Both the position numbers and the translations under genes were made by a program. The notes beneath the pieces are model-generated. The model was not told the origin of the DNA. It was given only the letters and a program-made list of their open reading frames with translations, and searched no databases. From Kitasatospora albolonga (GTDB lineage Bacteria; Actinomycetota; Actinomycetes; Streptomycetales; Streptomycetaceae), in the NCBI GenBank assembly GCA_002082585.1, contig CP020563.1, positions 4,768,001 through 4,832,000 on the forward strand: a stretch of DNA of 64,000 bases, in the 5' to 3' direction. Shown here piece after piece: positions 5,978 through 52,298 of the stretch (the first letter of the stretch is position 1; the number at the start of each line of letters is the position of its first letter).

Positions 5978-5992
5978 CTGACGGTTCGTCAG
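5978..5992. promoter_or_regulatory. Palindromic operator, perfect CTGACG-GTT-CGTCAG
   Basis: Fifteen-base dyad with both six-base arms perfect. It sits immediately upstream of the flavin reductase start codon. Its core sequence is identical to the copy at 52284. It is one of eight copies in the window; see findings. Confidence 0.8.
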
Positions 5993-6039
5993 ATGTGAAC
6001 CTCTTCCGCTGGGCGCGCGTTGGGGCGGAGGCCGCCCTT

Positions 6040-6408
6040 TCACCACCAGTAGGCGGGGTAGCGGGCGGTCTTTCCGCTGCGCCCGGCCAGGACGCCGACG
6101 CCCACGATCACGACCGTGGCGAGCAGCAGCAGGGCGAGAAAAAGGGGCGCCGCGGGCTGGGTCGCCACGACGATGACGGCGGTGGCGGCGGCGGGGGAGT
6201 GTCCGGTGCGGGTGAGGGCCATGGCGCCGATCGCCAGGCCGCCCGCCAGGGCCGAGGCCCACACCGAGCCGCCGACGGCGGCGAGGACCGCGAAGCCGGT
6301 GAGCGCCGAGACGAGCTGCCCGCCGATGACATGGCGCGGCTGGGCCAGCGGCAGGGCGGGCGCCGCGAAGACGAGCGCGGCGCTGGCGGCCAGCGGCGGG
6401 ATGAGCAC
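6040..6408 (-). CDS. HPP family integral membrane protein, probably disrupted at the 5' end
   Basis: The open frame from GTG 6408 gives 122 residues with the HPP-family core LIPPLAASAALVFAAP, QPRHVIGGQLVSAL and TRTGHSPAAATAVIV. HPP proteins have four membrane helices, and the first (LGGTVALLLLAAIGHALGQ) is encoded in frame just upstream of 6408, but that extension has no ATG, GTG or TTG. A good ribosome site (AAAGGAA) and GTG do exist at 6590, in a different frame; a single missing base between them would join the two. So the gene is either frameshifted or starts unusually. Some HPP proteins transport nitrite; the role here is unknown. Confidence 0.6.
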   Translation of the reverse strand: MLIPPLAASAALVFAAPALPLAQPRHVIGGQLVSALTGFAVLAAVGGSVWASALAGGLAIGAMALTRTGHSPAAATAVIVVATQPAAPLFLALLLLATVVIVGVGVLAGRSGKTARYPAYWW

Positions 6409-6621
6409 CGTCTGGCCGAGGGCGTGGCCGATGGCCGCGAGCAGCAGCAGGGCGACCGTACCGCCGAGGGTCGCGACCGAGACGGAGGAGGGCTTCGGGT
6501 GGGGCGGCGCCTTGGTGGCCGGCAGGGAGGAGAGGGAGGAGGGGGTGCGGGGGTTGAGCGGGGAGGGTGGTTGAGGGGGGTGTCGGGCACCGGGATTCCT
6601 TTCGCGACGACCTGTTCATGG

Positions 6622-6654
6622 GCTAACGGTTGAAGCATAGATTCATCCGTTAGC
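6622..6654. promoter_or_regulatory. Long inverted repeat in the HPP/CGNR divergent promoter
   Basis: Arms at 6622-6634 and 6642-6654 (GCTAACGG-type outer parts) pair at 12 of 13 positions around a 7-base centre. The dyad lies 37 bp upstream of the first CGNR gene and before the HPP gene. It is a good candidate operator, plausibly for the CGNR protein itself. Confidence 0.6.
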
Positions 6655-6691
6655 TTTGCGGGGGCTTTTCCGTGAGAGGCAGGATGGGGAG

Positions 6692-15720: not shown

Positions 15721-16635
15721 TCAGTACCCCCGGTACTCCGGTGCGCGCCGCTCGACGAACGCGGCGACGCCCTCGTTGGCGTCCCGGGTGGTCATGTTGA
15801 TCTCCTGGGCGGCCGCCTCCGCCGCGAACGCCGTGGCCCGGTCGCCGGTCAGGGAGTCGTTCACGAGCTGCTTGGTCAGGGCGATGGCCCGGGTCGGCCC
15901 GCAGGCCAGCCGTCCGGCCCACGCGGTGGCGAGGGCGGTCAACTCATCGGGCGGTACGGTGCGGTTGACGAGGCCCAGCCGTTCCGCGTCTGCCGCCGTC
16001 AGCGCGTCCCCGAAGAACATCAGCTCCTTCGCCCGCTGCGGCCCCACCAGCCGGGGCAGCAGATACGCGCCGCCGCCGTCCGGGACGAGCCCCCGGCGTA
16101 CGAAGACCTCGATGAACGTCGCCGTATCGGCCGCCAGGACCAGATCGCAGGCGAACGCCAGATGCGCGCCGATCCCGGCGGCGGTCCCGTTGACGGCGGC
16201 GATCACCGGCTTCTCGCAGTCCAGTACGGCGGCGACCAGCCGCTGGGCGCCGAGCCGGACGGTCCGGGCGACATCTCCGGGAAGGCGCTCGCCGGTCCGG
16301 GCCGGGGAGCCGCGCAGGTCGGCGCCCGCGCAGAAGCCCCGGCCGGTGGCGGTGAGCACGACGGCCCGTACGGCGGGGTCGGCGGAGGCGTCGGCCAGCA
16401 GGGCGATGACCCGTTCACGCTGCTCCCAGGTGACGGCGTTCATCGCCTCGGGACGGTTGAGGGTGATCCAGGAGACGCCGTCGGGGGTGGTGGAGTGGAG
16501 GACGGTGGACTCCACGGGTTCGGCATGCCCCGGGTCCGATGCCCCGCCGTTCACGGGCTCCGGGCTCGCTGACGCACCTCCGGTCGCGAGCTCCGGACCC
16601 ACCGGCTCACCACCGTTCACGGGCTCCCGGCTCAC
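15721..16635 (-). CDS. Enoyl-CoA hydratase/isomerase (crotonase family)
   Basis: 304 residues. The crotonase core starts at residue ~45 (VSWITLNRPEAMNAVTW). Oxyanion-hole strings are GRGFCAGADL and NGTAAGIGAHLAFACDL, and FVRRGLVPDGGGAYLLPRLVG follows. The GTG start overlaps the stop of the acyl-CoA synthetase as GTGA. The first ~44 residues are a low-complexity leader with repeated EPVNGG-type blocks that come from the duplicated gene junction, so they may be dispensable. Cotranscribed with the synthetase under two CTGACG-type operators. Confidence 0.92.
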   Translation of the reverse strand: MSREPVNGGEPVGPELATGGASASPEPVNGGASDPGHAEPVESTVLHSTTPDGVSWITLNRPEAMNAVTWEQRERVIALLADASADPAVRAVVLTATGRGFCAGADLRGSPARTGERLPGDVARTVRLGAQRLVAAVLDCEKPVIAAVNGTAAGIGAHLAFACDLVLAADTATFIEVFVRRGLVPDGGGAYLLPRLVGPQRAKELMFFGDALTAADAERLGLVNRTVPPDELTALATAWAGRLACGPTRAIALTKQLVNDSLTGDRATAFAAEAAAQEINMTTRDANEGVAAFVERRAPEYRGY

Positions 16636-18869
16636 CGGCACACCGCCAGCGCGTCCAGCGCCACCGCGCCCTGTCCGCGCCCCAGCACCACCAGCGGGTT
16701 GATGTCCAGCTCGGTCAGGTCGTCGCCCAGCTCCAGGGCCATGCGCTGCACCCGCAGCACCACCTCCACCAGGGCGTCCACATCGACGGGCGCCCCGCCG
16801 CGCACCCCGGCCAGCAGCGCCCGGCCGCGCAGCTCGTCGAGCATGTCCCGGGCCTCCTTCTCGCCGAAGGGGGGCACCCGTACCGCCGTGTCGTGCAGCA
16901 CCTCCACCAGCACCCCGCCGAGCCCGACCGTGACCGTCGGCCCGAAGAGAGGGTCGTGGGTGACGCCGACCATCATCTCGACGCCCCGGTCGATCATCTG
17001 GCAGACCAGGACGCCGTCCAGGTCGACGGATTCGAAGCGGGCGATGTCCGTCAACTCGCGGTAGGCATCGCGCACTTGGCTGGCCGATGTCAGGCCCACC
17101 TTCACCAGGCCCAGTTCCGTCTTGTGGGCGAGGCGGGGGCCGGACGCCTTCATCACGACCGGGTAGCCGACCGGCCCGGCCGCCCGTACGGCCGCTGCCG
17201 CGCTCGTCACGAGCTGCTCGCGCGGGACGCGGATGCCGTACGCGCGCAGGAGCTGCTTCGCCGCGTGCTCGCTGAGCTGCTGGCCCGGGCGCATCAGGGC
17301 CCGCGCCTTGCGGAAGGAGGGGGAGGGGGTGCGCGGGGCCTCGTCGAAGGGGGAGCGGTAGCCGGAGGTGAAGCGGTGGTGGTCCAGGTAGGACTTCACG
17401 GCGGTGACGCAGTTGGCGAACGTACGGAAGGTGGCGACGCGGGAGGAGCCGAGGAGCGTGGTGCGGTAGGCGTCCTCGGTGCCCACGGGGGAGCCCCAGA
17501 TCACGCACACCAGCTTGTCCGTGGCCTCCGCCGCGTCCACCAGGTCCTGGGCGAGCCGGTCGCTCATCGGCGGGAACGGGCCGGTGATCGGGCAGATGAG
17601 CACCCCGACGGACGGGTCCGCGAGGATCGCGTCGATGATCTTCCGGCCGCGCCAGTCCCCGACGGGGTGGCCGCCGTTGTCGATCGGGTTGGCGACGCTG
17701 AGGTAACCCGGTATCCAGGCGTGCAGCTCGTCCTGCTTGGCGGCGGAGAGGGTGGGCAGGGTGAGCCCGGCCGCCGTGGCGAGGTCCGCGAAGTGGGCGC
17801 CGGTGCCGCCGGAGATGGAGTACACGGCGACGCCCTCCGCGCGCGGTGGCCGGGCACGGGCCAACAGGGCGGCGGTGTCCTGGAGTTCGTCGAGGCCGTC
17901 CACCCGGACCACCCCGAACTGCCGCATCGCCGCGTCCACCACCCGGTCGGCCCCGGTCAGCTTCCCGGTGTGCGAGGCGGCGGCCTCGGCCCCGGTCTCC
18001 GTACGCCCCACCTTCACCGCCACCACCGGCACCCCCGCCCGTGCGGCCCGGTCGGCGGCGAGCAGGAACGAACGGCCGTCCTTGAGCCCCTCCACGTAAC
18101 AGGCGATGGCCCCCACCTCGGGAAGCTGGGCGAAGTACGCCAGAAAGTCGGCGGTCTCCAGATCGGCCTCGTTGCCCGTGGGCGCCCAGTGCGACAGCCG
18201 GATGCCCAGCTGCTGGAGGGCGTGCAGGGGCCGCCCCTGGTGTCCGGACTGGGTGATGAGGGCGATGGCCGGGCCCGCCAGGTCGTCCCGGAACTCCTCG
18301 AAGGCGTTGAGGTTGGTGTTCGGCCCCAGCAGCCGCACCCCGGACCGCTCCACGGCCGCCGCCAGCCGGGCCTGGGCCACCGCACCGGCCTCCCCGGTCT
18401 CGGCGAACCCGGAGGCGAAGGCCACGGCGAAGGGGATCTTGGCCTCGGCCAGCTCCTCGATCACCGGGAGCGGGTCGGCGACCAGGAGGACGGCGAGGTC
18501 GACGGGTTCGTCCAGTTCGGCCAGCGCGGCGACGCTCGGCACACAGAGCCGCCCGAACACGGCCTCCCGGGCCGGGTGCACGGGGTGCAGCCGCGCCCCG
18601 ACCCGCTCGGCCCAGGCGATGAGCTGCCGGGTGATCCCGGCGTTCGGGCGCCCCTCGGTGTCGGAGGCGCCGACGACGGCGACCGAGCGCGGCCGGAAGA
18701 AGCGGTCCAGGTCGGGCACGGCCAGGTGCAGCGGCCGTCCGCTGACATCGAGGCCGCCCTGCCGGGTGGCGGTGGGCAGACTGACGACGGAGGCGTGCGG
18801 CTCCTCGCCGCAGGCCACCACCCGGGCGCGGAAGTCGGTGGTGAAGGTGCCGTGAGTCGATCCAAGCAT
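16632..18869 (-). CDS. ADP-forming acyl-CoA synthetase (acetate--CoA ligase family)
   Basis: 745 residues carrying both halves of an NDP-forming ligase. The CoA-binding domain has SVAVVGASDTEGRPNAG near residue 55, the succinyl-CoA-ligase-like domain has the phospho-histidine region ITQSGHQG, and the C-terminal ATP-grasp has YPVVMKASGPRLAHKTELG. The family converts acyl-CoA plus ADP and phosphate to acid plus ATP, or the reverse. AGGAG precedes ATG 18869 by nine bases. Two CTGACG-type palindromes lie 75-114 bp upstream, which places it in the proposed catabolic regulon with the coupled hydratase. Confidence 0.9.
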   Translation of the reverse strand: MLGSTHGTFTTDFRARVVACGEEPHASVVSLPTATRQGGLDVSGRPLHLAVPDLDRFFRPRSVAVVGASDTEGRPNAGITRQLIAWAERVGARLHPVHPAREAVFGRLCVPSVAALAELDEPVDLAVLLVADPLPVIEELAEAKIPFAVAFASGFAETGEAGAVAQARLAAAVERSGVRLLGPNTNLNAFEEFRDDLAGPAIALITQSGHQGRPLHALQQLGIRLSHWAPTGNEADLETADFLAYFAQLPEVGAIACYVEGLKDGRSFLLAADRAARAGVPVVAVKVGRTETGAEAAASHTGKLTGADRVVDAAMRQFGVVRVDGLDELQDTAALLARARPPRAEGVAVYSISGGTGAHFADLATAAGLTLPTLSAAKQDELHAWIPGYLSVANPIDNGGHPVGDWRGRKIIDAILADPSVGVLICPITGPFPPMSDRLAQDLVDAAEATDKLVCVIWGSPVGTEDAYRTTLLGSSRVATFRTFANCVTAVKSYLDHHRFTSGYRSPFDEAPRTPSPSFRKARALMRPGQQLSEHAAKQLLRAYGIRVPREQLVTSAAAAVRAAGPVGYPVVMKASGPRLAHKTELGLVKVGLTSASQVRDAYRELTDIARFESVDLDGVLVCQMIDRGVEMMVGVTHDPLFGPTVTVGLGGVLVEVLHDTAVRVPPFGEKEARDMLDELRGRALLAGVRGGAPVDVDALVEVVLRVQRMALELGDDLTELDINPLVVLGRGQGAVALDALAVCR

Positions 18870-18944: not shown

Positions 18945-18959
18945 CTGACGCACTGTCAG
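18945..18959. promoter_or_regulatory. Palindromic operator CTGACG-CAC-TGTCAG
   Basis: Eleven of twelve arm positions match CTGACG-N3-CGTCAG. It is the proximal of two copies upstream of the acyl-CoA synthetase operon; the centres of the two are 24 bp apart. Confidence 0.7.
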
Positions 18960-18968: not shown

Positions 18969-18983
18969 CTGACGGGCCGTCAG
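18969..18983. promoter_or_regulatory. Palindromic operator, perfect CTGACG-GGC-CGTCAG
   Basis: All twelve arm positions match. It is the distal copy upstream of the acyl-CoA synthetase/hydratase operon. Confidence 0.8.
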
Positions 18984-29668: not shown

Positions 29669-29683
29669 CTGACGTACCGTCAG
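29669..29683. promoter_or_regulatory. Palindromic operator, perfect CTGACG-TAC-CGTCAG
   Basis: All twelve arm positions match. It ends 27 bp upstream of the DoxX-like gene start and belongs to the eight-copy set. Confidence 0.8.
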
Positions 29684-29710: not shown

Positions 29711-30163
29711 GTGCAGACGATCTGGCTCAGCGGTGCGGAATGGCTCGCCGTCCTGCGCATCGGTCTCGGCCTGTGGTGGCTGGAGAGCTGGCGGCACAAG
29801 GACAGGAAGGGCTGGTTCGAGCGCGGTACGGGGATCGCCTGGGCGGCCGACGTGGCGGGCAAGCACCGCTGGGGTGTGGTCCGTACCGGCTTCCGGCGGG
29901 TTGTCGAACCGCGCCCGAAGCTGATCGCGTACGTCGTCGTCTACGCCGAACTGGCCCTCGGACTGGGCCTGGTGACGGGCTTCCTGACCCCGGTCGCCCT
30001 GATCGCCGGGCTCCTCCTCAACCTGCTCTACCTCACCCTGATGATCCACGACTGGGCCGAGCAGGGGCAGAACGCGATGATGGCGCTGATCTCGCTGGTG
30101 GCCCTGTTCGCGATGGCCTGGCAGACGTGGTCGCTGGACGCGGCGTTCGGGCTGTTCCTGTGA
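29711..30163 (+). CDS. DoxX-like membrane protein
   Basis: 150 residues with three to four membrane helices. ISLVALFAMAWQTWSLDAAF, VVVYAELALGLGLVTGF and VLRIGLGLWWLESWRHKD match the DoxX/TQO-small-subunit type. Such proteins are membrane redox or carrier accessories. GTG 29711. Its stop overlaps the DUF35 gene start as GTGA, and a perfect operator precedes it, so both belong to the proposed catabolic regulon. Confidence 0.85.
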   Translation: MQTIWLSGAEWLAVLRIGLGLWWLESWRHKDRKGWFERGTGIAWAADVAGKHRWGVVRTGFRRVVEPRPKLIAYVVVYAELALGLGLVTGFLTPVALIAGLLLNLLYLTLMIHDWAEQGQNAMMALISLVALFAMAWQTWSLDAAFGLFL

Positions 30164-30669
30164 GCCCGGAGCCCGGGGCGGCGCCGCGTCCTGTGCACCC
30201 CGGGCCCGGGGCGGCGCCGCGCCCCGTGAGCCCGGAGCGTGCGGTGGCCCCGCGCTTCGACCTTCCGGAGCCGGACGCCTTCACCCGGCCGTACTGGGAC
30301 GCGGCGGGGGAGGGGCGGCTGCTGATCCGGCGGTGCGCCGGGTGCGGCCGGGCGCATCACTACCCGCGCGAGTTCTGCCCGTACTGCTGGAGCGAGGACG
30401 TCGGGTGGGAGCGCGCGAGCGGGGGCGCGACCCTGTACACCTGGTCCGTCGTCCACCGCAACGACCTGGCGCCCTTCGGGAGCCGCGTCCCGTACGTCGC
30501 CGCCGTGGTCGACCTGGCCGAGGGGCCCCGGATGATGACGGAGGTCGTGGAGTGCGCGCATGGCGACCTCCGCGTCGGTATGGGGCTGACGGTCACGTTC
30601 CGGGAGGCGGGGGAGGGCGGCGGCCCGGCCGTACCGGTCTTCCGGCCTGCGGGGCGGGGGGCGGCGTAG
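30160..30669 (+). CDS. Zn-ribbon/OB-fold DUF35 protein with tandem-repeat N-terminus
   Basis: 169 residues. The first ~36 residues are imperfect 11-12-residue repeats (SPEPGAAPRPV, HPGPGAAPRPV, SPERAVAPRF) created by duplication of the gene junction. The real domain starts at FDLPEPDAFTRPYWDAAGEG. The zinc ribbon is CAGCGRAHHYPREFCPYC, followed by an OB-fold (ATLYTWSVVHRND, YVAAVVDLAEGPRMMTEVV). DUF35 proteins bind Ltp-type thiolases and are needed for retro-aldol or hydratase steps in steroid side-chain breakdown. The nearest unpaired Ltp gene is at 33788. Confidence 0.9.
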   Translation: MSPEPGAAPRPVHPGPGAAPRPVSPERAVAPRFDLPEPDAFTRPYWDAAGEGRLLIRRCAGCGRAHHYPREFCPYCWSEDVGWERASGGATLYTWSVVHRNDLAPFGSRVPYVAAVVDLAEGPRMMTEVVECAHGDLRVGMGLTVTFREAGEGGGPAVPVFRPAGRGAA

Positions 30670-33787: not shown

Positions 33788-34963
33788 TCACCCCCGCCCC
33801 AGCACCACCGTCCCCGACGAGCAGAACCAGCCGCCCGTCCCCGAGGCCACCGCCAGCTCCGGGAGGCGCCCGCCCGCCTTGTGGACCTGGCGCTCCCCGG
33901 CCTCGCCGCGCAACTGGCGTACCGCCTCCACCAGCAGGAACAGCCCGCGCATCCCGGGATGGCAGGCGGAGAGGCCGCCGCCGTCCGTGTTCACCGGGAG
34001 CTCGCCGCGCAGGCCCGTGCGGCCCTTCTCCACGAACGCGCCGCCCTCCCCCTTCGCGCAGAACCCCAGGTCCTCCAGTGTCACCAGCGTCATGTACGTG
34101 AACGCGTCGTAGATCTCCGCCAGGTCGATGTCGGCGGGGCGCACCCCGGCGCGTTCGAAGGCCAGGCGGCCCGAGACGGCGGCGGGGGAGACCGTGAAGT
34201 CCTCCCACTCCGACATCGTGGCGTGCGAGACGTGCTCCCCGGCGCCCAGGACCCACACCGGGGCCTTCGCCGTGTCCGGTACGTACTCCTCGGCGGCCAG
34301 CAGCACCGCGCAGCCCCCGTCGCTGCGGATGCAGCAGTGCAGTCTGGTGAACGGGTCCGCGATCATCGGGCCGGAGAGGACCTCGTCGACCGTGATCGGG
34401 GTGCGGAACATCGCCTCCGGGTTGGCCGCCGCGTTCGCCCGCGCCTGTACGGCCACCTCGGCGAGCTGTTCCAGGGTCGTGCCGTACTCGTGCATGTGGC
34501 GGCGGGCGGCCATCGCGTACTTGGCGATCAGGCTGTGCCCGTACGGCACCTCGAACTGGAGCGGCCCCCGCGCCCCGAACGACAGGTTCGACGTGCGGCG
34601 GCCCGCCCTGATGTCGGCCCGTGCCGTCGACCCGTAGACCAGGAGTACCGCCCTGGCCCGGCCCGCCGCGATGGCGTCCGCCGCGTGGGCGGCCATCACC
34701 TCCCAGGTGGCGCCGCCCACCGCCGTGGAGTCGACCCAGGTGGGCCGCAGCCCCAGGTACTCCGCGACCTCTACCGGGGCCAGCGTCCCGAGCCCGGCGG
34801 AGGCGAAGCCGTCGACCACCGAGCGGTCCAGGCCGGAGTCGGCCAGCGCGCGGCGGGCCGCCTGGGCGTGCAGGGCGTAGGGGGTGGCGTCGTCGACGCG
34901 TCCGCAGTCCGCGAGGGAGATGCCGACGACAGCGACCTTGCGGGGGTGGCGGGAGGCGGGCAT
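33788..34963 (-). CDS. Ltp-type thiolase-fold protein (lipid-transfer/aldolase family)
   Basis: 391 residues with the thiolase fold (VAVVGISLADCG, ALADSGLDRSVVDGF, GGLSACHPGMRGLFLLVEAV) and the Ltp hallmark EIYDAFTYMTLVTLEDLGFC followed by GEGGAFVEKG. The position of the usual nucleophilic cysteine reads STAVGGATWEVM, without cysteine, as in Ltp2 retro-aldolases of steroid side-chain degradation. Such proteins need a DUF35 partner; candidates are at 30160 and 44247. The operator ends four bases before ATG and no ribosome site exists, suggesting leaderless expression. Confidence 0.9.
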   Translation of the reverse strand: MPASRHPRKVAVVGISLADCGRVDDATPYALHAQAARRALADSGLDRSVVDGFASAGLGTLAPVEVAEYLGLRPTWVDSTAVGGATWEVMAAHAADAIAAGRARAVLLVYGSTARADIRAGRRTSNLSFGARGPLQFEVPYGHSLIAKYAMAARRHMHEYGTTLEQLAEVAVQARANAAANPEAMFRTPITVDEVLSGPMIADPFTRLHCCIRSDGGCAVLLAAEEYVPDTAKAPVWVLGAGEHVSHATMSEWEDFTVSPAAVSGRLAFERAGVRPADIDLAEIYDAFTYMTLVTLEDLGFCAKGEGGAFVEKGRTGLRGELPVNTDGGGLSACHPGMRGLFLLVEAVRQLRGEAGERQVHKAGGRLPELAVASGTGGWFCSSGTVVLGRG

Positions 34964-34967: not shown

Positions 34968-34982
34968 CTGACGGTACATCAG
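34968..34982. promoter_or_regulatory. Palindromic operator CTGACG-GTA-CATCAG
   Basis: Eleven of twelve arm positions match. It lies directly before the Ltp-type gene start, in the divergent region shared with the acyl-CoA dehydrogenase gene. Confidence 0.72.
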
Positions 34983-35139: not shown

Positions 35140-35154
35140 ATGACGACCCGTCAG
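35140..35154. promoter_or_regulatory. Palindromic operator ATGACG-ACC-CGTCAG
   Basis: Eleven of twelve arm positions match. It overlaps a -10-like TAATAT (35136-35141) and lies 39 bp upstream of the acyl-CoA dehydrogenase start. Confidence 0.72.
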
Positions 35155-35193: not shown

Positions 35194-36507
35194 GTGGACG
35201 CCGCCTTCACCGCGGAACAGGACGAGATCCGCCGCACCCTGCGCGAACTGCTCGCCAAGCACGGCGGACCTCGCGAGGTCCGCGCCGCCGTAGGTACCCC
35301 CGAGGGCCACGACCCGGCCCTGTGGCACCGGCTCGCCCGGGAGCTCGGGCTGCCGGGGTTGGCGCTCGGGGAGGAGTACGGCGGCGTCGGCTGCACCGCC
35401 ACCGAGCTGGCCCTCGCCTGCGAGGAGACGGGCCGCGCCCTGCTGCCCTCCCCGCTGCTCGCCACCGCCGTACTCGCCGCCCCCCTGATCACCGCCCTGG
35501 GCACCCCCGGTCAGCGCGCCCGGCTGCTGCCCCGGATCGCCGACGGGACCCTCACCGCCGCCCTCGCCGTCCCCGGCGGGTCGATGGCCACCGCCCTCGG
35601 CCTCACCGCCGACAACCGGGCCGCAGCCTGGGCGGGCGGCGGCCGGGCCGGTGGCGTCCAGGCCCGCCGGGACCCCGAGGGCGGCGGCTGGCGGCTGTAC
35701 GGGGAGGCGGACCGGGTGCTGGACGGGCACAGCGCCGGGCTCCTCCTGGTCGCCGCCCACACCGGGGGCTACCCGCGCAGCCGGACGCTCCTGTTCCTGG
35801 TCTCCGCCGAGGCGCCCGCCCGGGCCCCGGTCCCCGCTGAGGCGCCTGCCCCGGTCCCGGTCCCCGCCGAGGTGTCCGCTCCGGTCGACGGGCTGACACG
35901 TACCCGGCTGACCTCCATGGACGAGACCCGGCCCCTCGCCCGCGTCGAGCTGCGTGACACCCCGGCCGAACTCCTGGGCACGGACGACGCCGTGGACGGT
36001 ACGGACGTCTGCGGCGCGCTCGCCGACACCGGGTGCACCGCCGCCGCCGTGCTGGCCGCCGAGGCGGTCGGGGCGGCGGCGGGCGCGCTGGAGAGGACCG
36101 TGGCGTACGTGAAGGAGCGCGAGCAGTTCGGCCGGGCCATCGGGTCGTTCCAGGCGGTCAAACACCGCCTCGCGGACCTGTACGTACGGGTGGAGGCGGC
36201 CCGCTCCGCCGCGTACCACGCCGCCCGGGACCCGGCGGCGGGCCCGCTCGCGCTGGCCCAGGCGCTGGAGGCGGCCCGGATCGTGGCCGGTGAGGCCGTG
36301 CAGCTGCACGGGGGGATCGGCTTCACCTGGGAGCACGAGGCGCATCTGTACGTGAAGCGGGCGGCGGCGGACGAGCTGCTCTTCGGGCCCGTCCACCGGC
36401 TGCGCGACCACGCGGCGGGGCGGGCCGGGCTGTTCGGGGACGTAACGTCGCGGAGTCTGGCGTACGGGACCTCCGCAACGGGTGCCGCGCGCGGGGCGGC
36501 CGTCTGA
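35194..36507 (+). CDS. Acyl-CoA dehydrogenase (FadE-like)
   Basis: 437 residues. N-terminal helical domain (FTAEQDEIRRTLRELL), EEYGGVGCTATELALACEETG, and C-terminal YVKEREQFGRAIGSFQAVKHRLADLYVRVEAAR plus QLHGGIGFTWEHEAHLYVKR. Within the middle domain the usual flavin-binding stretch is shortened and an insert of Ala/Pro/Val repeats (PAEAPAPVPVPAEV) lies near residue 215, as in some heteromeric steroid FadE subunits that lack full FAD contacts. GTG 35194 with GGGGAAGGAG upstream. Divergent from the Ltp gene under paired operators. Confidence 0.92.
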   Translation: MDAAFTAEQDEIRRTLRELLAKHGGPREVRAAVGTPEGHDPALWHRLARELGLPGLALGEEYGGVGCTATELALACEETGRALLPSPLLATAVLAAPLITALGTPGQRARLLPRIADGTLTAALAVPGGSMATALGLTADNRAAAWAGGGRAGGVQARRDPEGGGWRLYGEADRVLDGHSAGLLLVAAHTGGYPRSRTLLFLVSAEAPARAPVPAEAPAPVPVPAEVSAPVDGLTRTRLTSMDETRPLARVELRDTPAELLGTDDAVDGTDVCGALADTGCTAAAVLAAEAVGAAAGALERTVAYVKEREQFGRAIGSFQAVKHRLADLYVRVEAARSAAYHAARDPAAGPLALAQALEAARIVAGEAVQLHGGIGFTWEHEAHLYVKRAAADELLFGPVHRLRDHAAGRAGLFGDVTSRSLAYGTSATGAARGAAV

Positions 36508-37001
36508 TGGCCGGTGGTGCCGACGGCCGGGCTGTCCGGGCCGTCCAGAAGGTCTCCTCCACCCGCGCCTTCGCGAAGCTCGCCCCGCACGTCGTCCCCG
36601 TCCTGGACCGCACCGTGCACCGGCTCACCCGGGGCCGGGTGCTGCCCAGCGCCCGGATGCTGCCGGGGCTCGTCCTGACCGTGCCGGGCGCGCGCACCGG
36701 GCGGCCGAGGGTGACCCCGCTGGCCTGTATGCCGGAGGGGGAGGCGGAAAGCACCTGGATTCTCGTCGGCAGCAACTTCGGCCGTACGGGGCATCCGGCC
36801 TGGACCGCGAATCTGCTGGCCCGCCCGGACGAGGCCGTCATCAGCTGGCGCGGCCGGTCCATTCCGGTACGGGCGCGGCTGCTGGAGGGGGCGGAGCGGG
36901 AGGAGGTGTGGCGGGTGGCGCTGACGTTCTGGCCGCCGTACGCGGCGTACCAGGCGCGGGTGGAGCGGCAGATCCGGCTCTTCCGGCTGGAGCGGCGGTA
37001 G
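36507..37001 (+). CDS. Nitroreductase-family deazaflavin (F420)-dependent oxidoreductase
   Basis: 164 residues of the DDN-like split-barrel family: LPGLVLTVPGARTGRPRVTPLACM, WILVGSNFGRTGHPAWTANLLA and VISWRGRSIPVRARLL. Known members use reduced coenzyme F420 for two-electron reductions, including of quinones and unsaturated rings. The start ATG overlaps the FadE stop by one base (TGATG), so it is coupled and probably belongs to the same regulon. Confidence 0.9.
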   Translation: MAGGADGRAVRAVQKVSSTRAFAKLAPHVVPVLDRTVHRLTRGRVLPSARMLPGLVLTVPGARTGRPRVTPLACMPEGEAESTWILVGSNFGRTGHPAWTANLLARPDEAVISWRGRSIPVRARLLEGAEREEVWRVALTFWPPYAAYQARVERQIRLFRLERR

Positions 37002-37107: not shown

Positions 37108-37755
37108 CTACTTGGTGGGCTTCTTGCCGGTGATGCCGAGGTGCACCAACAGCGCCAGGTTCGGGCGCAGTTCGGCCTGCTTCACGCCCCAGGTGGTGAA
37201 CCCCTTCTGGTGCGAGGCGACCGCCGCCAGCATCGCGACCAGGGAGCCCGCCATCGCGGCGGCGCTGACGTCCTTGTCGACCTTGCCCTTGGCCTGGAGC
37301 TCCTTCACCGAATCGGTGAGGGAGTTGGTGACCGAGTTCAGGATCTTCATACGGATCTTGTAGAACCGTTTGTCGCCCTCGGCCGCGCCGAGGTCGATCA
37401 CGCGGAGGATCGCGTCGTTGCGGCGCCAGAAGTCGAGGAACCCTTCGACGAGTTCCTCGGCCGTCTGCCAGCCGGCCTTGCCGACCCAGGAGCGTCCGGC
37501 GACCAGTTCGGTCAGTCCGGCGCCCTCCTTGGCGACTTCCTCGGCGATTTCGAGGACGGCGCCCTCCACATCGGGGAAGTACTGGTAGAAAGTCGCGGGT
37601 GAAGTCCCGGCCTTCCGGGCGACGTCGATGACTTTGACGTCCCGGTACGGCGAGGAGCTGAGCATCTCGCTGAGGCAGTCGAGCAGCTTCTGCCGCGTCG
37701 CCTGACCGCGTCGACCGGCCACGCGGCCGTCGACGGTACGTACTTGTCCTGTCAT
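37108..37755 (-). CDS. TetR-family transcriptional regulator
   Basis: 215 residues. N-terminal HTH: RRGQATRQKLLDCLSEML, VKVIDVARKAGTSPATFYQY, FPDVEGAVLEIAEEVA. The helical ligand domain includes LVEGFLDFWRRNDAILRVID, RFYKIRMKILNSVTNSLTDS and AAAMAGSLVAMLAAVA. The LDFWRRNDAILRV pattern is typical of TetR proteins linked to lipid and acyl-CoA catabolism in actinobacteria. It is the only TetR gene here, lies next to FadE, and a degenerate copy of the CTGACG palindrome overlaps its start codon, so it is the leading candidate to bind the eight operators (inference). Confidence 0.93.
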   Translation of the reverse strand: MTGQVRTVDGRVAGRRGQATRQKLLDCLSEMLSSSPYRDVKVIDVARKAGTSPATFYQYFPDVEGAVLEIAEEVAKEGAGLTELVAGRSWVGKAGWQTAEELVEGFLDFWRRNDAILRVIDLGAAEGDKRFYKIRMKILNSVTNSLTDSVKELQAKGKVDKDVSAAAMAGSLVAMLAAVASHQKGFTTWGVKQAELRPNLALLVHLGITGKKPTK

Positions 37756-37763
37756 GCCGTCAG
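37749..37763. promoter_or_regulatory. Degenerate operator over the TetR start codon
   Basis: CTGTCA-TGC-CGTCAG matches 10 of 12 arm positions of the consensus and covers the ATG. It would fit autoregulation, but it is the weakest copy. Confidence 0.4.
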
Positions 37764-43445: not shown

Positions 43446-44243
43446 TCACCGCACCCTCGGCTCCCCGTTCCGGTCGCCGCTCCCGCCCCCGCCCCGTCGC
43501 CCCTCGAACAACTCGGCCTGCTTCTCCAGGGCCAGGTTCCCGAGTGCGATCAGGGCGGGCGCCTGGGCCATCGCCTGCGTACGGGCGGCCTCCCGCGCCG
43601 ACCACACCGCCCGGACCGTGCCCTGCACCGCCTCCGTCGGATACCCGGCGATCACGGCCGCCGCCCGCAGCGCCGCCGCCACCGCGCCGCCCGGCTCCGT
43701 CACCTCGCTGACCAGCCCGACCGCGTACGCCCGTTCGGCGCCGATGCGTTCCGCGGTGCCCATCAGGGCCATCCGGGCCACCTCCCCGAACGGCATCCGC
43801 TGGGCCATCGCGACGGCCTCGTACGCCGAGACCATCCCGTACGTCGTGTGCGGGTCGAAGAAGGTGGCCGCGCGTGAGGCGACGATGAACTCCGCCTCGC
43901 CCAGCAGGTAGAACGCCCCGCCGCACGCCATCCCCTCCACGGCCGCGACCACCGGCTTCCACAGGTCGTTCGCCTTCGGCCCGACGCGCAGGAGCGGGTC
44001 GTCGATCGCGTACGGGGACGGGGGCTGCGGGACCCGTACGCCCCGGTCGATCCCGGTGCAGAAGGCGCGCGTGCCGGTTCCGGTGAGGACCACGGCCCGC
44101 ACCGACTCGTCGTACCGCAACTCCCGCCACGTCGAGGCGAGTTCACCGGCCGTCTCCAGGTCGATGGCGTTCAGCTTCTCCGGCCGGTCCAGCACCACGA
44201 GCGCGACCCCGCGCTCCCCGTCCCGCTCGATGCGCAGCGCCAT
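43446..44243 (-). CDS. Enoyl-CoA hydratase/isomerase (crotonase family)
   Basis: 265 residues. Crotonase core VALVVLDRPEKLNAIDL, first oxyanion-hole region TGTGTRAFCTGIDRG and second VEGMACGGAFYLLGEAEFIVA. The helix that usually carries a catalytic glutamate reads FFDPHTTYGMVSAYEAVAMA. It is the last gene of the Ltp2/DUF35/hydratase operon and starts three bases after the DUF35 stop, so it probably hydrates or isomerises the same CoA intermediates. Confidence 0.92.
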   Translation of the reverse strand: MALRIERDGERGVALVVLDRPEKLNAIDLETAGELASTWRELRYDESVRAVVLTGTGTRAFCTGIDRGVRVPQPPSPYAIDDPLLRVGPKANDLWKPVVAAVEGMACGGAFYLLGEAEFIVASRAATFFDPHTTYGMVSAYEAVAMAQRMPFGEVARMALMGTAERIGAERAYAVGLVSEVTEPGGAVAAALRAAAVIAGYPTEAVQGTVRAVWSAREAARTQAMAQAPALIALGNLALEKQAELFEGRRGGGGSGDRNGEPRVR

Positions 44244-44246: not shown

Positions 44247-44699
44247 TCACCGCTCCAGCAACCAGCGTACGAGCGGGAAACCGTCGGGTCCCACCGGGCA
44301 GAAGACGGCCCGCACCGGTGCCCCGATCCGCAGCCGCGCCGGGTCCACCGAGTTCAGCGGCGCGTCGGCGGAGGCGACGACGTTCCCGGCCAGCCGGATG
44401 TGCGGGGCCTCCACCAGTTCCACCACCACCGCGTTGTACGGGGCCTGTTCGGCATAGGCGGGGAGCAGCGGCGGGTGCGGGATCACGTACGACCAGAGCC
44501 GCCCGCGTCCGCTCATCTCCCGCCACTCGCTCGCGAACGACCCGCAGTGCGGGCAGCAGGGCCGGGGCGGGAAGCGCAGTTCGCCGCAGGCGGGTGCGGC
44601 GCAGGACTGGACGCGCAGTTCGCCCCGGGCGGCGTACTCCCAGAAGGGGGCGCCGTCCTCGTCGGCGACGGGAAGCAGCAGCGAATCGTTCACACCCAT
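44247..44699 (-). CDS. Zn-ribbon/OB-fold DUF35 protein
   Basis: 150 residues. ADEDGAPFWEYAARGELRVQ leads to a zinc ribbon CAAPACGELRFPPRPCCPHC, then an OB-fold (GRLWSYVIPHPPLLP, YNAVVVELVEAPHIRLAGNV). DUF35 partners activate Ltp-type thiolases, and this one lies 22 bp after such a gene, an obvious complex pair. GAGGAG lies ahead of both ATG 44699 and GTG 44693; either could be used. Confidence 0.92.
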   Translation of the reverse strand: MGVNDSLLLPVADEDGAPFWEYAARGELRVQSCAAPACGELRFPPRPCCPHCGSFASEWREMSGRGRLWSYVIPHPPLLPAYAEQAPYNAVVVELVEAPHIRLAGNVVASADAPLNSVDPARLRIGAPVRAVFCPVGPDGFPLVRWLLER

Positions 44700-44721: not shown

Positions 44722-45870
44722 TCAGTTCCGCAACAGGACAGCCGACGTCGGTACACCCTCACCTGCTGTGACCAGGCAGGTGGCGGCGTCCGGCACCTGG
44801 GCGGTGGACGTGCCCCGCAGCTGCTTGACGCCCTCGGTGATGAGGTTGAACCCGTGGACGTACGCCTCGCTCAGCCCGCCGCCCCCGGTGTTGACCGGCA
44901 GCCGCCCCCCGCTCTCCAGCGCCCCGCCCTCGGTGAACGCCCCGCCCTCGCCACGCCCGCAGAAGCCGTACCCCTCCAGGGAGAGCGGGACGAGCGGGGT
45001 GAACGCGTCGTAGATCTGGGCCACATCGACGTCGTCCGGCCCGAAGTCGGCCTGTTTCCACAGCTGTCGGGCGGCTGTCCAGGCGGGTCCGGTGAGCGGG
45101 TCGTCGTTCCAGTAGTTGACCATCCCGTGGTGCTGGGCGGGCAGCCCCTGGGCGACCGAGTGGAGGTAGACGGGGCGCTGACGGCAGTCGCGGGCGCGCT
45201 CGGCGGAGACGATGACACAGGCCAACGCCCCGTCCGTCTCCAGGCAGTTGTCGAAGAGGCAGAGGGGTTCGCTGATCCAGCGGGAGGTCATGTACATCTC
45301 GCGGGTCAGCGGGCGCTCGTACATGATCGCGTCCGGGTTCTGGTTGGCCCGGTTGCGGCAGGCGAGGGCCACGTTGAAGAGGTGGTCGCGGGTGGCCCCG
45401 TACTCGTGCATGTAGCGGCGGGCCAGCATCCCGATCTCGTCGGCGGGGCGCAGGAGTCCGTAGGGCCGGGTCCACTGGGCGGGGGTGGGCAGCTGGACGG
45501 CGGTGTTCTTCCACGGTCGCGGGCCCGACCCGCGCTTCCGCGACCGCCAGGCCACCCCGACGCTCGCCTGTCCGGTGGCGACGGCGGCGGCGAGATGGCC
45601 GAGGGTGGCGCACGAACCGCCGCCCCCGTAACCGACCTTCGAGAAGAAGGTGACGTCCCCGGCGCCGATCGCCTTGGCGACCTCCACCTCGTCGGTCTCC
45701 TCCATCGTGTACGAGGCGAAGCCGTCGACCTCCGAGGGGGCGATGCCCGCGTCGTCGAGGGCGGCCAGGATCGCCCGGCAGGCGAGGGTCTTCTCGGATT
45801 CCGGGAGCCGTTTCGCGAAGGCCGTCTGCCCGATCCCGGCTATCGCTGTCGCGTCCTTGAGCGTCGCCAT
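44722..45870 (-). CDS. Ltp-type thiolase-fold protein (lipid-transfer/aldolase family)
   Basis: 382 residues. Thiolase fold with TAIAGIGQTAFAKRLPESEK, ALDDAGIAPSEVDGF, the Ltp string QIYDAFTPLVPLSLEGYGFC and GEGGAFTEGG, and the GGGGLSEAYVHGFNLITEGV end. Unlike the copy at 33788, the nucleophile region contains a cysteine (GGGGSCATLGHLAAAV), so thiolase-like activity is not excluded. First gene of an operon with DUF35 and hydratase; divergent from the FadD3-like ligase across an operator. Confidence 0.92.
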   Translation of the reverse strand: MATLKDATAIAGIGQTAFAKRLPESEKTLACRAILAALDDAGIAPSEVDGFASYTMEETDEVEVAKAIGAGDVTFFSKVGYGGGGSCATLGHLAAAVATGQASVGVAWRSRKRGSGPRPWKNTAVQLPTPAQWTRPYGLLRPADEIGMLARRYMHEYGATRDHLFNVALACRNRANQNPDAIMYERPLTREMYMTSRWISEPLCLFDNCLETDGALACVIVSAERARDCRQRPVYLHSVAQGLPAQHHGMVNYWNDDPLTGPAWTAARQLWKQADFGPDDVDVAQIYDAFTPLVPLSLEGYGFCGRGEGGAFTEGGALESGGRLPVNTGGGGLSEAYVHGFNLITEGVKQLRGTSTAQVPDAATCLVTAGEGVPTSAVLLRN

Positions 45871-45925: not shown

Positions 45926-45940
45926 CTGACGGATAGTCAG
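45926..45940. promoter_or_regulatory. Palindromic operator CTGACG-GAT-AGTCAG
   Basis: Eleven of twelve arm positions match. It sits in the 97-bp divergent region between the Ltp2-type operon and the acyl-CoA ligase gene and could control both. Confidence 0.75.
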
Positions 45941-45967: not shown

Positions 45968-47527
45968 GTGATGCGGGACGACGAGGAGTGGGGCACCATC
46001 CCGGGGCTGGTACGGGAAGCGGCACGGCGGTACGGACCGGTGGAGGCGGTCGTCGAGGGCCGCACCCGTCTGACGTACGCGGAACTCGGCGACCGGGTGG
46101 AGCGCACCGCCGCCGCGTGCCTGGCCGCCGGGGTGGAGCCGGGCGACCGGGTCGCGATCTGGGCCCCGAACACGCTGGACTGGATCGTCTCCGCGCTCGG
46201 GGCGGTGAGCGCGGGCGCGGTGCTGGTGCCCCTCAACACCCGCTTCAAGGGCACGGAGGCGGCGCACATCCTGCGGCGCAGCCGGGCGAGGCTGCTCTTC
46301 GTCACCGGCACGTTCCTGGGGACGTCGTACGTGGCGTCCCTGCGCCGGTCGGAGGTGAAGCTGCCGGACCTGGAACGGGTGGTGGTGCTGGCGGACACGG
46401 CCCCCGAGGACTACACGAGCCGGCCGGACTTCCTGGCGGCGGGCGCGGGCGTACCGGCCTCCGCCGTACGGGAGCGGGCCGACGCCATCCGCCCCTTCGA
46501 CCCCTCCGACATCATCTACACCTCGGGCACCACGGGCGACCCCAAGGGTGCGGTGATCACCCACGCCCAGACGCTGCGCGCGTACGCGATCTGGAGCGAG
46601 CTGGCGGGTCTGCGCGAGGGCGACCGCTATCTGATCGTGAACCCCTTCTTCCACACCTTCGGCTACAAGGCGGGGATCATCGCCTGCCTGATGCGGGGGG
46701 CCACGATGGTCCCGCAGCCGGTGTTCAACGTGGACACGGTGCTGGCGAACATCGCGGCGGAACGTATCTCCGTCCTGCCCGGCCCGCCCACCCTCCACCA
46801 GTCCCTGCTGGACCACCCGGCCCGCGACGCCCACGACCTCTCCGCGCTCCGCCTGGTGGTGACGGGCGCGGCGGTGGTCCCCCTCCGGCTGGTGGAGCGC
46901 CTGCGCACCGAACTGGGCATCGCCACGGTCCTCACGGCGTACGGCCTCTCCGAGGCGAGCGGCATCGTCACGATGTGCCGCCGGGGCGACCCGCCCGAGA
47001 CCGTGGCCACCACGTCCGGCCGTGCGATCCCCGGCACCGAGGTCCGCGTCCTCGCCGCCCCCGGCAGCCCCGGCGAGATCCAGGTCCGGGGCTTCAACGT
47101 CATGACCGGCTACTTCGAGGACCCGGCCACCACGGCCGCCACGATCACCCCCGACGGCTGGCTCCGCACCGGTGACGTGGGCGTCCTGGACGCGGCGGGC
47201 AACCTGCGGATCACGGACCGGATCAAGGACATGTTCATCGTGGGCGGCTTCAACGCCTACCCGGCCGAGATCGAACAGCTCATCGGCCTCCACCCGGACA
47301 TCGCCGACGTGGCGGTCGTCGGCGTCCCCGACCCCCGCCTCGGCGAGGTCGGCAAGGCGTACGCGGTCCGCCGCCGGGGCGCCACGGTGACGGCGGACGA
47401 CCTGATCGCCTGGTCCCGCCGGGAGATGGCGAACTTCAAGGTGCCGAGGACGGTGGAGTTCGTCCCGGAACTCCCGCGCAACGCGAGCGGCAAGGTGGTG
47501 AAGGGGGAGCTGCGGGGGCGGGGGTAG
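45968..47527 (+). CDS. FadD3-like acyl-CoA synthetase (AMP-forming)
   Basis: 519 residues of the ANL superfamily: DIIYTSGTTGDPKGAVITHAQ (ATP loop), NPFFHTFGYKAGIIACLMRG, TAYGLSEASGIVT, DGWLRTGDVGVLDAAGNLRI, DRIKDMFIVGGFNAYPAEIE and the catalytic lysine in PRNASGKVVKGEL. The overall pattern resembles FadD3, the ligase for the steroid C/D-ring propionate HIP, but substrate is inferred only. GTG 45968 has GGAAGG seven bases upstream; ATG 45971 is the alternative. Operator upstream. Confidence 0.92.
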   Translation: MMRDDEEWGTIPGLVREAARRYGPVEAVVEGRTRLTYAELGDRVERTAAACLAAGVEPGDRVAIWAPNTLDWIVSALGAVSAGAVLVPLNTRFKGTEAAHILRRSRARLLFVTGTFLGTSYVASLRRSEVKLPDLERVVVLADTAPEDYTSRPDFLAAGAGVPASAVRERADAIRPFDPSDIIYTSGTTGDPKGAVITHAQTLRAYAIWSELAGLREGDRYLIVNPFFHTFGYKAGIIACLMRGATMVPQPVFNVDTVLANIAAERISVLPGPPTLHQSLLDHPARDAHDLSALRLVVTGAAVVPLRLVERLRTELGIATVLTAYGLSEASGIVTMCRRGDPPETVATTSGRAIPGTEVRVLAAPGSPGEIQVRGFNVMTGYFEDPATTAATITPDGWLRTGDVGVLDAAGNLRITDRIKDMFIVGGFNAYPAEIEQLIGLHPDIADVAVVGVPDPRLGEVGKAYAVRRRGATVTADDLIAWSRREMANFKVPRTVEFVPELPRNASGKVVKGELRGRG

Positions 47528-47616: not shown

Positions 47617-47904
47617 ATGGCAACCAAGAAATACACGGTCACCCTGCCGGAGGAGCTGGCGGAGGAGATCCGGGCGGAGGTCGGCCCGGGGGCCTTCAGT
47701 GCGTATGTCACCAGGGCCATAGAGCGTCAGCGCGAGCACGACCGGCTGGGGGAGCTGGTGGCGTGGATGCAGACGGAACGTGGTCCGCTCACCGAGGAGG
47801 AGCAGGATGCGGCCGCCGCCGAGATGCGTGACATCGAGCGGTGGTTCGAGGAGCGGGAAGCCGGCAGACGCGGCGGGCACGGCGAAGAGGCGGCAGCCGC
47901 CTGA
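47617..47904 (+). CDS. Ribbon-helix-helix antitoxin-like protein
   Basis: 95 residues. The N-terminus KKYTVTLPEELAEEIRAEVG followed by FSAYVTRAIERQREHDRL has the strand-helix-helix pattern of CopG/RHH antitoxins, and the acidic C-terminal half (TEEEQDAAAAEMRDIERWFE) would wrap a toxin. The stop overlaps the PIN gene start by one base, the usual antitoxin-toxin layout. ATG 47605 in the same frame sits directly after GGAGGT and could be the real start. Confidence 0.88.
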   Translation: MATKKYTVTLPEELAEEIRAEVGPGAFSAYVTRAIERQREHDRLGELVAWMQTERGPLTEEEQDAAAAEMRDIERWFEEREAGRRGGHGEEAAAA

Positions 47905-48299
47905 TGAAGGACATCTGCTTCGTCCTGGACTCCGAGGCGCTGTCCAGGATCGCTCTGCGTGACCGTGAGATGACAGCGATTCTCGCGAAGGCGCATCAGG
48001 CGGGTAGCCGCGTGATGACGAGCCCCATGACCCTCGTGGAGGCGTACCACGGCAAAGTCCGTCCGGCGGAGTGGAACTGGGCCATGTCCCGCCTGGTCGT
48101 CGAGCCCGTCACCAAGGAGGTCGCCGACGAGGCGATCCGGCTCCTGCTGGACACGGGCCTCCACGGCCACAAGTACGCCATTGACTCGGTGCTGGCTGTG
48201 CTCGCCAACCGGCAGCGCGGCCGGACGGTCGTCTTCACCTCCGACGCGGACGACCTGACCAAACTGTGCGCGCCGCGCGTGCAGGTCCGGGCCCTGTAG
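47904..48299 (+). CDS. PIN-domain ribonuclease toxin (VapC-like)
   Basis: 131 residues. Acidic PIN residues appear in CFVLDSEALSRIA (Asp), PMTLVEAYHGK (Glu), YAIDSVLAVLAN (Asp) and TSDADDLTKLC (Asp). The product is expected to cleave RNA, with the RHH protein as neutraliser. It overlaps the antitoxin gene by one base and ends before a hairpin terminator. The pair is inserted between the FadD3-like ligase and afsS. Confidence 0.9.
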   Translation: MKDICFVLDSEALSRIALRDREMTAILAKAHQAGSRVMTSPMTLVEAYHGKVRPAEWNWAMSRLVVEPVTKEVADEAIRLLLDTGLHGHKYAIDSVLAVLANRQRGRTVVFTSDADDLTKLCAPRVQVRAL

Positions 48300-48859: not shown

Positions 48860-48865
48860 GCGCTG

Positions 48866-51800: not shown

Positions 51801-51943
51801 GGCGAGCCGGAGGGGAGCGACTCCGCCCCGCGCCATGCCCGTACGGGACCCAGGACGGTGAACCTGAGGGAGTCGGCGGCCCCCGGTTCCCCCGGAGCGC
51901 GCTGCTCCGGTACGCGCACGCGTGGCCCGTGGTCACGGTCCAT
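48866..51943 (-). CDS. afsR: AfsR, SARP-family global regulator with NB-ARC and TPR domains
   Basis: 1025 residues. The SARP DNA-binding domain (LRFTVLGPVRAWRGAESLPS, SPQQRALLAALLLREGRTAT) is followed by the BTAD domain (TALTAAHPLRERLRELLMVALYRSGRQAEAL). The ATPase has a Walker A GIGGVGKTT and a Walker B VLVLLDNAH, and TPR repeats fill the C-terminal third. Sequence and order match S. coelicolor AfsR, the phospho-target of AfsK. ATG 51943 has AGGGGG upstream. Unusual: the last ~45 residues are an Ala/Gly/Val repeat tail (VAGAVAGTAAGAASG). Confidence 0.95.
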   Translation of the reverse strand: MDRDHGPRVRVPEQRAPGEPGAADSLRFTVLGPVRAWRGAESLPSGSPQQRALLAALLLREGRTATAAELIDAFWGEEPPSQALATIRTYASRLRKILGQETLVSESGGYAIRIGRGALDLTLAQDLAAEAEKARAGGDRGQARTLLNKILGLWAGEALASVPGPYAENQRARLEEWHLTLTETRLDLDLEVGDHAEAVSELTALTAAHPLRERLRELLMVALYRSGRQAEALAVYADTRRLLAEELGVDPRPELSQLQQRILRADEELARPADEPAAAPAPLKPAQLPATVPDFTGRVPFVRELGAQLATAEGSVMAVSALAGIGGVGKTTLAVHVAHQARPHFPDGQLYVDLQGAGARAAEPETVLGSFLRALGTADSAIPDTLDERAALYRSTLAGRRVLVLLDNAHDAAQIRPLLPGTPGCAALVTSRVRMVDLAGAYLVDLDVMSPEEALQLFTRIVGTERVGAEREAALDVVAACGFLPLAIRIAASRLAARRTWTVSVLAAKLADERRRLDELQAGDLAVKATFELGYGQLEPAQARAFRLLGLADGPDISLAAAAALLDLEPHTAEDLLEALVDTSLLESAAPGRYRYHDLVRLYARACAERDEAPTEGEAALSRLLDFYLATAAGVYALERPGDRTVDHLEATRYEGLSFTDHGRALDWLYAEAGCLLACVQQHRGAGSVRRAVDLLLASKDLAESGANSRQFESAATVARDAAAQAGDPYAEARARTTLAQVHSMAGRFDQAAEEARRALLLAPAADDVWTHCNAPNELGIIAAYRNQQSEAEALLRQACTAFRADSNQAGEASALCNLSRVHLAMGRTDSAVRLAGEGVALYNRMGLTLRLANGRYALGLALARANRPDEAEERLQEALAVFRESRQRLWEGMTLFRLAEVQLTAERPARAAALAEQALTVLLHIGGEWRRANVLTVLGQALHGIGQADRAQACWREALAVFERLEAPESESVRRLLSGTVAGAVAGAAAGGVAGAVAGTAAGAASGTPRGGAAGATVGASDGS

Positions 51944-52283
51944 TGATGCCCCCTGTCCTGCTCGCCTGCCGACCCCGCTCTTTAGCGGGTCCTGCCGGTG
52001 GTGCCCGTGCCCGTACCCGTACCTGAGCCCGCATCCGGAAGCCGTCCGCCCGCTGTCGTCCATGGCGCCCGTCCGCGCGTCCGGATGTGCGCGCGGACGT
52101 GCGCGCGGACGTGCGTACGGCGGAGTGCGGGTGCGGGCGTACATCCGGATTGCTCGGTACCGCTGGTATTGCGCTCAACAGTCTGCCTTGTCGCGGGCGG
52201 ACTCGTCAGCAGTGGGTGACGCTCTGCACAAGGCTTCGACAACGATTGGGGAACCGTGTGCGGTACCGGTGCCGGACAGATAG
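51944..52283. other. afsR/amidohydrolase divergent intergenic region
   Basis: No gene seen. It holds the afsR leader with short CCCGTG/CCCGTA repeats near 52000 and two perfect 12-bp repeats GTGCGCGCGGAC at 52087-52110 with a degenerate third. It becomes AT-richer near 52150-52260. Confidence 0.6.
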
Positions 52284-52298
52284 CTGACGGTTCGTCAG
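52284..52298. promoter_or_regulatory. Palindromic operator, perfect CTGACG-GTT-CGTCAG
   Basis: All twelve arm positions match, and the core and the downstream AT are identical to the copy at 5978. It ends 21 bp before the amidohydrolase ATG. Confidence 0.8.

Follow-up and report, generated by a model that had tools for sequence, protein, structure and literature searches.

A dispersed palindromic motif in Kitasatospora albolonga and Streptomyces, and its probable reader, a putative KstR-like TetR repressor of acyl-CoA catabolism

The palindrome CTGACG-N3-CGTCAG, scattered among catabolic promoters of Kitasatospora albolonga, is very probably the operator of a TetR-family protein that carries the PF19352 domain, and we regard that protein as an autorepressing, KstR-like repressor of the catabolism of alicyclic or branched acyl-CoA compounds. 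The motif, its location at promoters, its conservation and its link to the tetR gene come directly from computation; binding, repression, ligand and substrate we infer. The original prediction, a dispersed catabolic regulon read by a centrally placed TetR protein, is supported at the level of sequence by genome counts, by footprints across species, by an autoregulatory site that all 89 Streptomyces-type tetR upstream regions retain, and by co-occurrence and co-loss across genomes. The window, meaning the whole 64,000-nucleotide stretch that was analysed, comprises bases 4768001-4832000 of a single-contig genome of 8.03 Mb; it is 73% GC, and 83% of it is called coding by a simple codon-usage script whose gene starts are approximate.

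Operator copies in the window and the genome

Eight copies of the palindrome had been predicted in the window, and every coordinate and mismatch count proved correct: four match at 12/12 arm positions and four carry one mismatch (Table 1). As had also been claimed, the copies are intergenic and lie beside the catabolic genes with which they were associated (8/8 by the approximate gene calls, the longer mechanical open reading frames that overlap some of the sites not being counted as genes). Among all 6+6 palindromes with gaps of 0-8 in the window, this one has the most perfect copies, four, the next palindromes having three. Loose matching was dropped: at up to three mismatches the 15-mer is not enriched in the window (51 matches versus 66.7 ± 8.3 in shuffles), and since this count is not above chance, the signal resides in strict sites only.

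The full operator extends over about 19 bp, A-N-CTGACG-N3-CGTCAG-N-T. In 94 distinct footprint sites, all selected at no more than one mismatch, conservation within the arm is 100% for T, G and A, 93% for C and 88% for the inner G. The AT-rich flanks remarked on in the original prediction turn out to be part of the motif: counted on both strands, position -9 is an A in 83% of these sites, and position -8 is a T or an A in 66%. A symmetric 19-bp matrix, trained on 108 intergenic sites at other Streptomyces loci, ranks the eight window sites first with scores of 19.7-30.3. Since the loci used for training flank tetR in other species, they contribute some orthologues of the window sites. The site on the tetR start is ninth with 11.4, and the best other position in the window reaches 7.2; first-order shuffles of the window have on average 0.21 positions that score at least 14, and the highest score in 100 shuffles is 19.1.

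The regulon reaches well beyond the window. In the whole genome the 19-mer at no more than one mismatch, which we call a strict site, occurs 19 times versus 0 for the reversed control; at up to two mismatches the counts are 107 and 19, and the 15-mer at up to one mismatch is found in 113 places versus 15 for the reversed pattern. Fourteen of the 19 strict sites lie beside catabolic genes and five do not, three of these five falling inside genes. We scanned 458 kb with the matrix, made up of the window and 40 stretches selected for holding motif hits, and found 57 positions scoring at least 12; the best 28 are all intergenic, and the 29th is inside rplP. An even spread of hits through coding DNA, which the original prediction had named as its refutation, is not what the top of this ranking shows, in stretches that were selected for motif hits. 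Of the top 28 sites, 22 adjoin a gene for a CoA-ester, redox or hydrolase-type enzyme, two are borderline, and for four we identified no such neighbour. For 26 of the 28, the distance to the closest called start is 12-163 bp, and many operators are doubled or common to divergent genes, an arrangement that fits steric repression.

The strict match at 4989092, in the gene at the rplP position of the ribosomal protein operon, recurs in near-identical letters among the matches of other genomes. We take it as probably due to coding conservation and not as an operator.

Table 1. Operators and tagged genes. Window positions count from the first base of the window; genome positions are those of the contig. 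Genome rows for tagged genes are from among the matches listed, and the regulon list is not exhaustive.
Feature	Numbering	Position	Strand	Remarks
Operator	window	5978..5992		perfect; upstream of flavin reductase
Operator	window	18945..18959		one mismatch; first of pair
Operator	window	18969..18983		perfect; second of pair
Operator	window	29669..29683		perfect; upstream of DoxX-DUF35
Operator	window	34968..34982		one mismatch; directly upstream of LtpA
Operator	window	35140..35154		one mismatch; upstream of FadE
Autoregulatory operator (proposed)	window	37749..37763		on tetR start codon; CTGACGGCATGACAG on tetR strand
Operator	window	45926..45940		one mismatch; common to divergent Ltp2 and FadD3
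Operator	window	52284..52298		perfect; upstream of amidohydrolase
Flavin reductase, HsaB-like	window	5340..5972	-	below NCBIfam cut-off; start perhaps 5945
Enoyl-CoA hydratase	window	15721..16515	-	downstream of ADP-forming synthetase
ADP-forming acyl-CoA synthetase	window	16632..18869	-
DoxX-like membrane protein	window	29711..30163	+	Pfam match below cut-off
DUF35 / ChsH2-type OB-fold protein	window	30244..30669	+	start uncertain
Ltp-type thiolase LtpA	window	33788..34963	-
Acyl-CoA dehydrogenase FadE	window	35194..36507	+	nearest named model IpdE2, below cut-off
F420H2-dependent quinone reductase / deazaflavin oxidoreductase	window	36507..37001	+	directly 3' of FadE
TetR-family regulator, 215 aa	window	37108..37755	-	PF00440 + PF19352 (TetR_C_38); proposed motif reader
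Enoyl-CoA hydratase	window	43446..44243	-
DUF35 partner of Ltp2	window	44247..44699	-	frame open to 44762
Lipid-transfer protein / thiolase Ltp2	window	44722..45870	-	PRK07855 above cut-off
FadD3-family acyl-CoA ligase	window	45971..47527	+	equivalog, NCBIfam NF005801: 823.6 vs cut-off 657
Amidohydro_2 family protein	window	52320..53540	+
Divergent acyl-CoA ligase and amidohydrolase/acyl-CoA dehydrogenase	genome	4761282, 4761372		two operators
Cyclase + SDR	genome	4766830
Luciferase-like oxygenases	genome	3166334 + 3166396; 1929933; 6156706
Fourth luciferase-like oxygenase	genome	below 3168290		beside SDR
MFE-2-type hydratase + alcohol dehydrogenase	genome	1919853
Two-domain acyl-CoA dehydrogenase	genome	1925086		lower score
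DUF35 + thiolase	genome	808738
Aldehyde dehydrogenase + ferredoxin	genome	1955913
Ferredoxin reductase	genome	1700457
SDRs	genome	6357438, 3131867
Hydratase + ligase	genome	120829
Nitronate-monooxygenase-class enzyme + ligase	genome	139828
Isochorismatase-fold + PNPOx proteins	genome	761659		borderline
Polyketide-cyclase/lipid-transport-fold protein	genome	769719		borderline
Strict sites, no catabolic neighbour	genome	1547058, 2045548
Strict sites inside genes	genome	4989092, 6514044, 7590328
Top-28 sites, no such neighbour identified	genome	4083195, 4912225, 2836864, 1547058		judged by start of neighbour protein

The TetR protein and the site on its start codon

The proposed reader has an N-terminal helix-turn-helix (PF00440, 26.8 bits against a cut-off of 24) and matches the whole PF19352 domain at its C terminus with 246 bits against a curated cut-off of 23.9. 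Its predicted model (pLDDT 92.2) has an all-helical TetR fold. Orthologues are present in 24/24 same-genus relatives at 73-99% identity and in all 34 Streptomyces genomes searched, and the protein is not confined to that genus, as Frankia, Actinomadura and further actinomycetes have it too. Of the named TetRs at the loci, the one from Streptomyces griseus NCTC13033 is the closest, with 97% identity, and the genome is accordingly treated here as Streptomyces. An alignment of 24 TetRs shows no variation at the positions TSxATFYQYF of the recognition helix, locus L154 having been left out after the first alignment as its called gene is not the TetR.

A degenerate copy of the palindrome had been predicted at the start of tetR, and it is there, at 37749 with two mismatches, the start codon lying inside the right half of the operator. 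At the same position and with no more than one mismatch, this operator is found in 89 of 89 distinct Streptomyces-type upstream regions, 75 of them exact; these are regions with a TetR identity of at least 70%, and 10 loci that repeat another locus's upstream are not counted. The ATGACAG half is unchanged in all 89 together with its Thr codon ACA, which is rare (23 of 1029 Thr codons across the genes called in the window); an invariant half with a rare codon suggests selection on the DNA and not on the protein. Farther afield, a start-codon site with 0-2 mismatches to the Streptomyces one is present at 4/4 Actinomadura loci, in Yinghuangia and at five loci of family f3 (L076-L080), and most of the Frankia-type, f14, f15, f16 and f20 loci have a site with one mismatch, either in the tetR start or a short distance 5' of it. 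At L145, where the TetR is 61% identical, the variant at tetR is degraded, and no tetR operator was found at L153, L154 or L212. The last of these is an Acidimicrobiales metagenome-assembled genome whose TetR is 50% identical and which has one perfect palindrome 5.4 kb away, a hint of an older origin or of transfer.

It is improbable, in our estimate, that the operators are genuine and read by a different regulator, the TetR gene merely possessing a similar site. That reading draws on the score of the tetR site, the lowest among the nine window sites, on the gene for a BTAD regulator that is divergent to the 52284 site, and on the many copies in four of the five f15 genomes, which have no PF19352 (see below). 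Against it, we found no regulator gene other than tetR whose own start carries an operator, tetR-adjacent operators recur in several families, and the BTAD gene is kept near tetR in two site-poor genomes (G010 and G017), where its best upstream site has at least two mismatches. We favour the PF19352 protein as the reader.

Conservation and co-occurrence across genomes

We asked of up to 75 tetR loci (74 Streptomyces and one Yinghuangia) whether an operator with no more than one mismatch lies within 220 bp upstream of each orthologue of the window genes. It is kept upstream of FadE in 47/47, LtpA in 52/52, Ltp2 in 29/30, FadD3 in 28/28 and DoxX in 17/17 cases; these counts are not independent, as FadE and LtpA have one common intergenic region, likewise Ltp2 and FadD3, and all the loci are related by descent. 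A further row for the first DUF35 protein (14/14) was left out; its query overlaps DoxX and counts the same site. None of the 297 pooled control upstreams has the operator, neither those of non-target genes (F420 oxidoreductase 0/54, glyoxalase-type 0/62, kinase 0/66, PNPOx 0/53) nor those of genes inside operons (hydratase 0/45, DUF35 0/17).

Targets far from tetR behave in the same way, with a site no more than about 300 bp upstream in 14/14 Streptomyces orthologues of a luciferase-like oxygenase and 13/14 of a MaoC hydratase. The nearest homologues of both in family f3 have none (0/5 and 0/5), and a second luciferase-like copy in that family has it in 5/5. A core of LtpA-FadE, Ltp2-FadD3, luciferase-like oxygenase and MaoC recurs in many of the Streptomyces searched, and members of the regulon come and go between genomes.

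This turnover bears on the possibility, tentative and somewhat short of an even chance, that the TetR is a global regulator of several unrelated acid-degrading modules and not of one pathway. The tagged genes include four AMP-forming ligases and an ADP-forming synthetase, four luciferase-like oxygenases, three Ltp-type thiolases and three DUF35 proteins, and members vary between genomes that hold anywhere from 2 to 48 sites within the genus. The recurring core, on the other hand, and gene types that fit one degradation scheme argue for a single pathway.

The regulator and its sites also occur together. One PF19352 match each was found in 25 of 148 genomes of the class (E <= 1e-20). With family f15 left out, the median number of strict sites is 11 where PF19352 is present (0-31, n=24) and 1 where it is absent (0-12, n=119); the Mann-Whitney p is 7e-12, or 5e-11 with f15 included. 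Strict sites number 2-48 in same-genus relatives (controls 0-1); among named genomes, five Streptomyces have 18-43, three Actinomadura 5-7, three Frankia-type genomes 5-12 and Yinghuangia 61 (controls 0-4). In ten Streptomyces selected by site count, LtpA (E <= 1e-90) is absent from 6/6 site-poor genomes (2-13) and present in 4/4 site-rich ones (29-48). G010 and G017 keep tetR and its own operator with only 2 and 5 strict sites. The exceptions run in both directions: G168, 86% complete, has 12 sites and no PF19352 match, and G060 and G069 have a match yet 0 and 3 sites. At L154 of G069, the PF19352 homologue is reported with an in-frame stop, and the three motif sites of that genome equal its control count.

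Family f15 (G051, G073, G091, G107 and G123; loci L236-L255) has 122-277 strict copies per genome: four genomes without PF19352 have 122-129, and the fifth, with PF19352, has 277. Since most of these genomes lack the domain, the palindrome alone is no proof of a PF19352 regulator. A 400-kb portion of G051 has 11 perfect copies, 6 of them inside genes and 3 between convergent gene ends; they have no A/T flanks and so look unrelated. The convergent copies, together with a 6-bp stem and 3-nt loop that could fold, are what might recommend an RNA hairpin or a structural chromosome element in place of a protein operator. We consider this highly improbable, as the best Streptomyces copies are at promoters, several of them common to divergent genes, and the A/T flanks are conserved outside the six-base arms. 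G123, the one f15 genome with PF19352 (locus L155), has about twice as many sites as the rest of the family, and some of its copies lie near tetR or inside genes. When palindromes were counted de novo in eight small pools of loci (Frankia, Actinomadura and others), the motif came first in none and second in f14 and f15, because GC-rich palindromes dominate there.

Proposed mechanism and related regulators

We propose that A-N-CTGACG-N3-CGTCAG-N-T serves as the operator for the TetR encoded at 37108-37755. A dimer, as expected from the family, would occupy operators mostly 12-163 bp from catabolic start codons, often between divergent genes and sometimes paired, and block transcription; it would repress its own gene through the weaker copy on the tetR start codon. 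An inducer would then release it. The target list and what is known of KstR-type regulators lead us to suspect a CoA thioester made by a regulated ligase as the most likely inducer. The derepressed enzymes (CoA ligases, acyl-CoA dehydrogenases, MaoC and crotonase hydratases, Ltp thiolases, DUF35 proteins, SDRs, luciferase-like oxygenases, and flavin and ferredoxin reductases) may degrade a bulky alicyclic or branched carboxylic acid.

The KstR2 regulon for HIP is alike in the tagged FadD3-family ligase, the IpdE2-like dehydrogenase and the NMO/FabK-class enzyme, IpdC being said to resemble FabK, whereas the IpdE2, HsaB and FabK model scores obtained here are below their cut-offs. The KstR2 operator also differs from CTGACG-N3-CGTCAG. 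As for steroid enzymes, none of the models such as IpdE2, HsaB, cyclohexanecarboxylate ligase and PimC reaches its cut-off, so we assign no substrate.

By fold, the closest relative of the TetR model is EthR of Mycobacterium tuberculosis, by a clear margin in both Foldseek and VIA-align and at about 19% identity; the acyl-CoA-binding TetRs FasR, DesT and FadR are lower in the fold-match lists. EthR has a long hydrophobic pocket, and its gene is divergent from one gene for a Baeyer-Villiger monooxygenase. There is no monooxygenase neighbour of that kind here, where tetR is divergent from a glyoxalase-domain gene (38204-39013), and one divergent target contrasts with tens of operators. Among the PDB sequence matches of the TetR (26 and 19), many of whose names are generic, no chain is named KstR; KstR is also absent from the VIA-align list of the model, to which we give no weight.

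In style, the closest match is the cholesterol regulon of mycobacterial KstR. According to PMC1995591, KstR (Rv3574) is a self-repressing TetR repressor of lipid catabolism with 16 intergenic palindromes in one species and 31 in another; many of them separate divergent genes, and some are doubled. On the reading proposed here, a TetR protein, autorepression, scattered intergenic palindromes and lipid-type catabolism would be common to both systems. The motif published there, TnnAACnnGTTnnA, bears out the earlier statement that CTGACG-N3-CGTCAG is a different sequence (PMC1995591). The two systems also differ in reach: a steroid survey records no steroid pathway in 55/57 Streptomyces genomes (PMC4810484), whereas the TetR described here is present in every one of the same-genus relatives. 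The substrate would therefore be something other than a steroid, possibly something abundant in soil. That a master repressor controls a dispersed pathway for a non-steroid alicyclic or terpenoid-like carboxylic acid, as a streptomycete counterpart of the mycobacterial cholesterol regulon, we consider evenly balanced.

The arrangement is known from KstR-type regulons, and the substrate is the interesting part. Searches of open-licence PubMed Central papers, including searches with motif strings, found no description of a PF19352 TetR or of this operator; PMC3784963 deals with a different gene. If our reading is correct, one regulator would link some twenty or more dispersed "putative" catabolic genes throughout a major genus of soil bacteria, there would be a common inducer to seek for them, and with the ligand in hand the operator could be used directly as a sensor part.

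Two groups of genes lie close to the tagged ones in the window. A small gene followed by a PIN-domain gene (47617-48299), likely a toxin-antitoxin pair, is situated between FadD3 and the BTAD regulator, and menaquinone-type genes (VitK2_biosynth and a CofH/MqnC C-terminal domain; 55339-59797) lie just beyond the cluster. By synteny, SCO4502 and SCO4503 of S. coelicolor probably correspond to the Ltp2 and FadD3 genes. Tables in the S. coelicolor literature give SCO4502 as a thiolase and SCO4503 as a CoA ligase, and an RNA-seq table lists SCO4499 as a TetR gene. In the same literature, SCO4502 is listed as down-regulated (-1.037) on over-expression of SCO3201, and a ChIP-seq paper on ScbR/ScbR2 includes SCO4503 in one of its tables.
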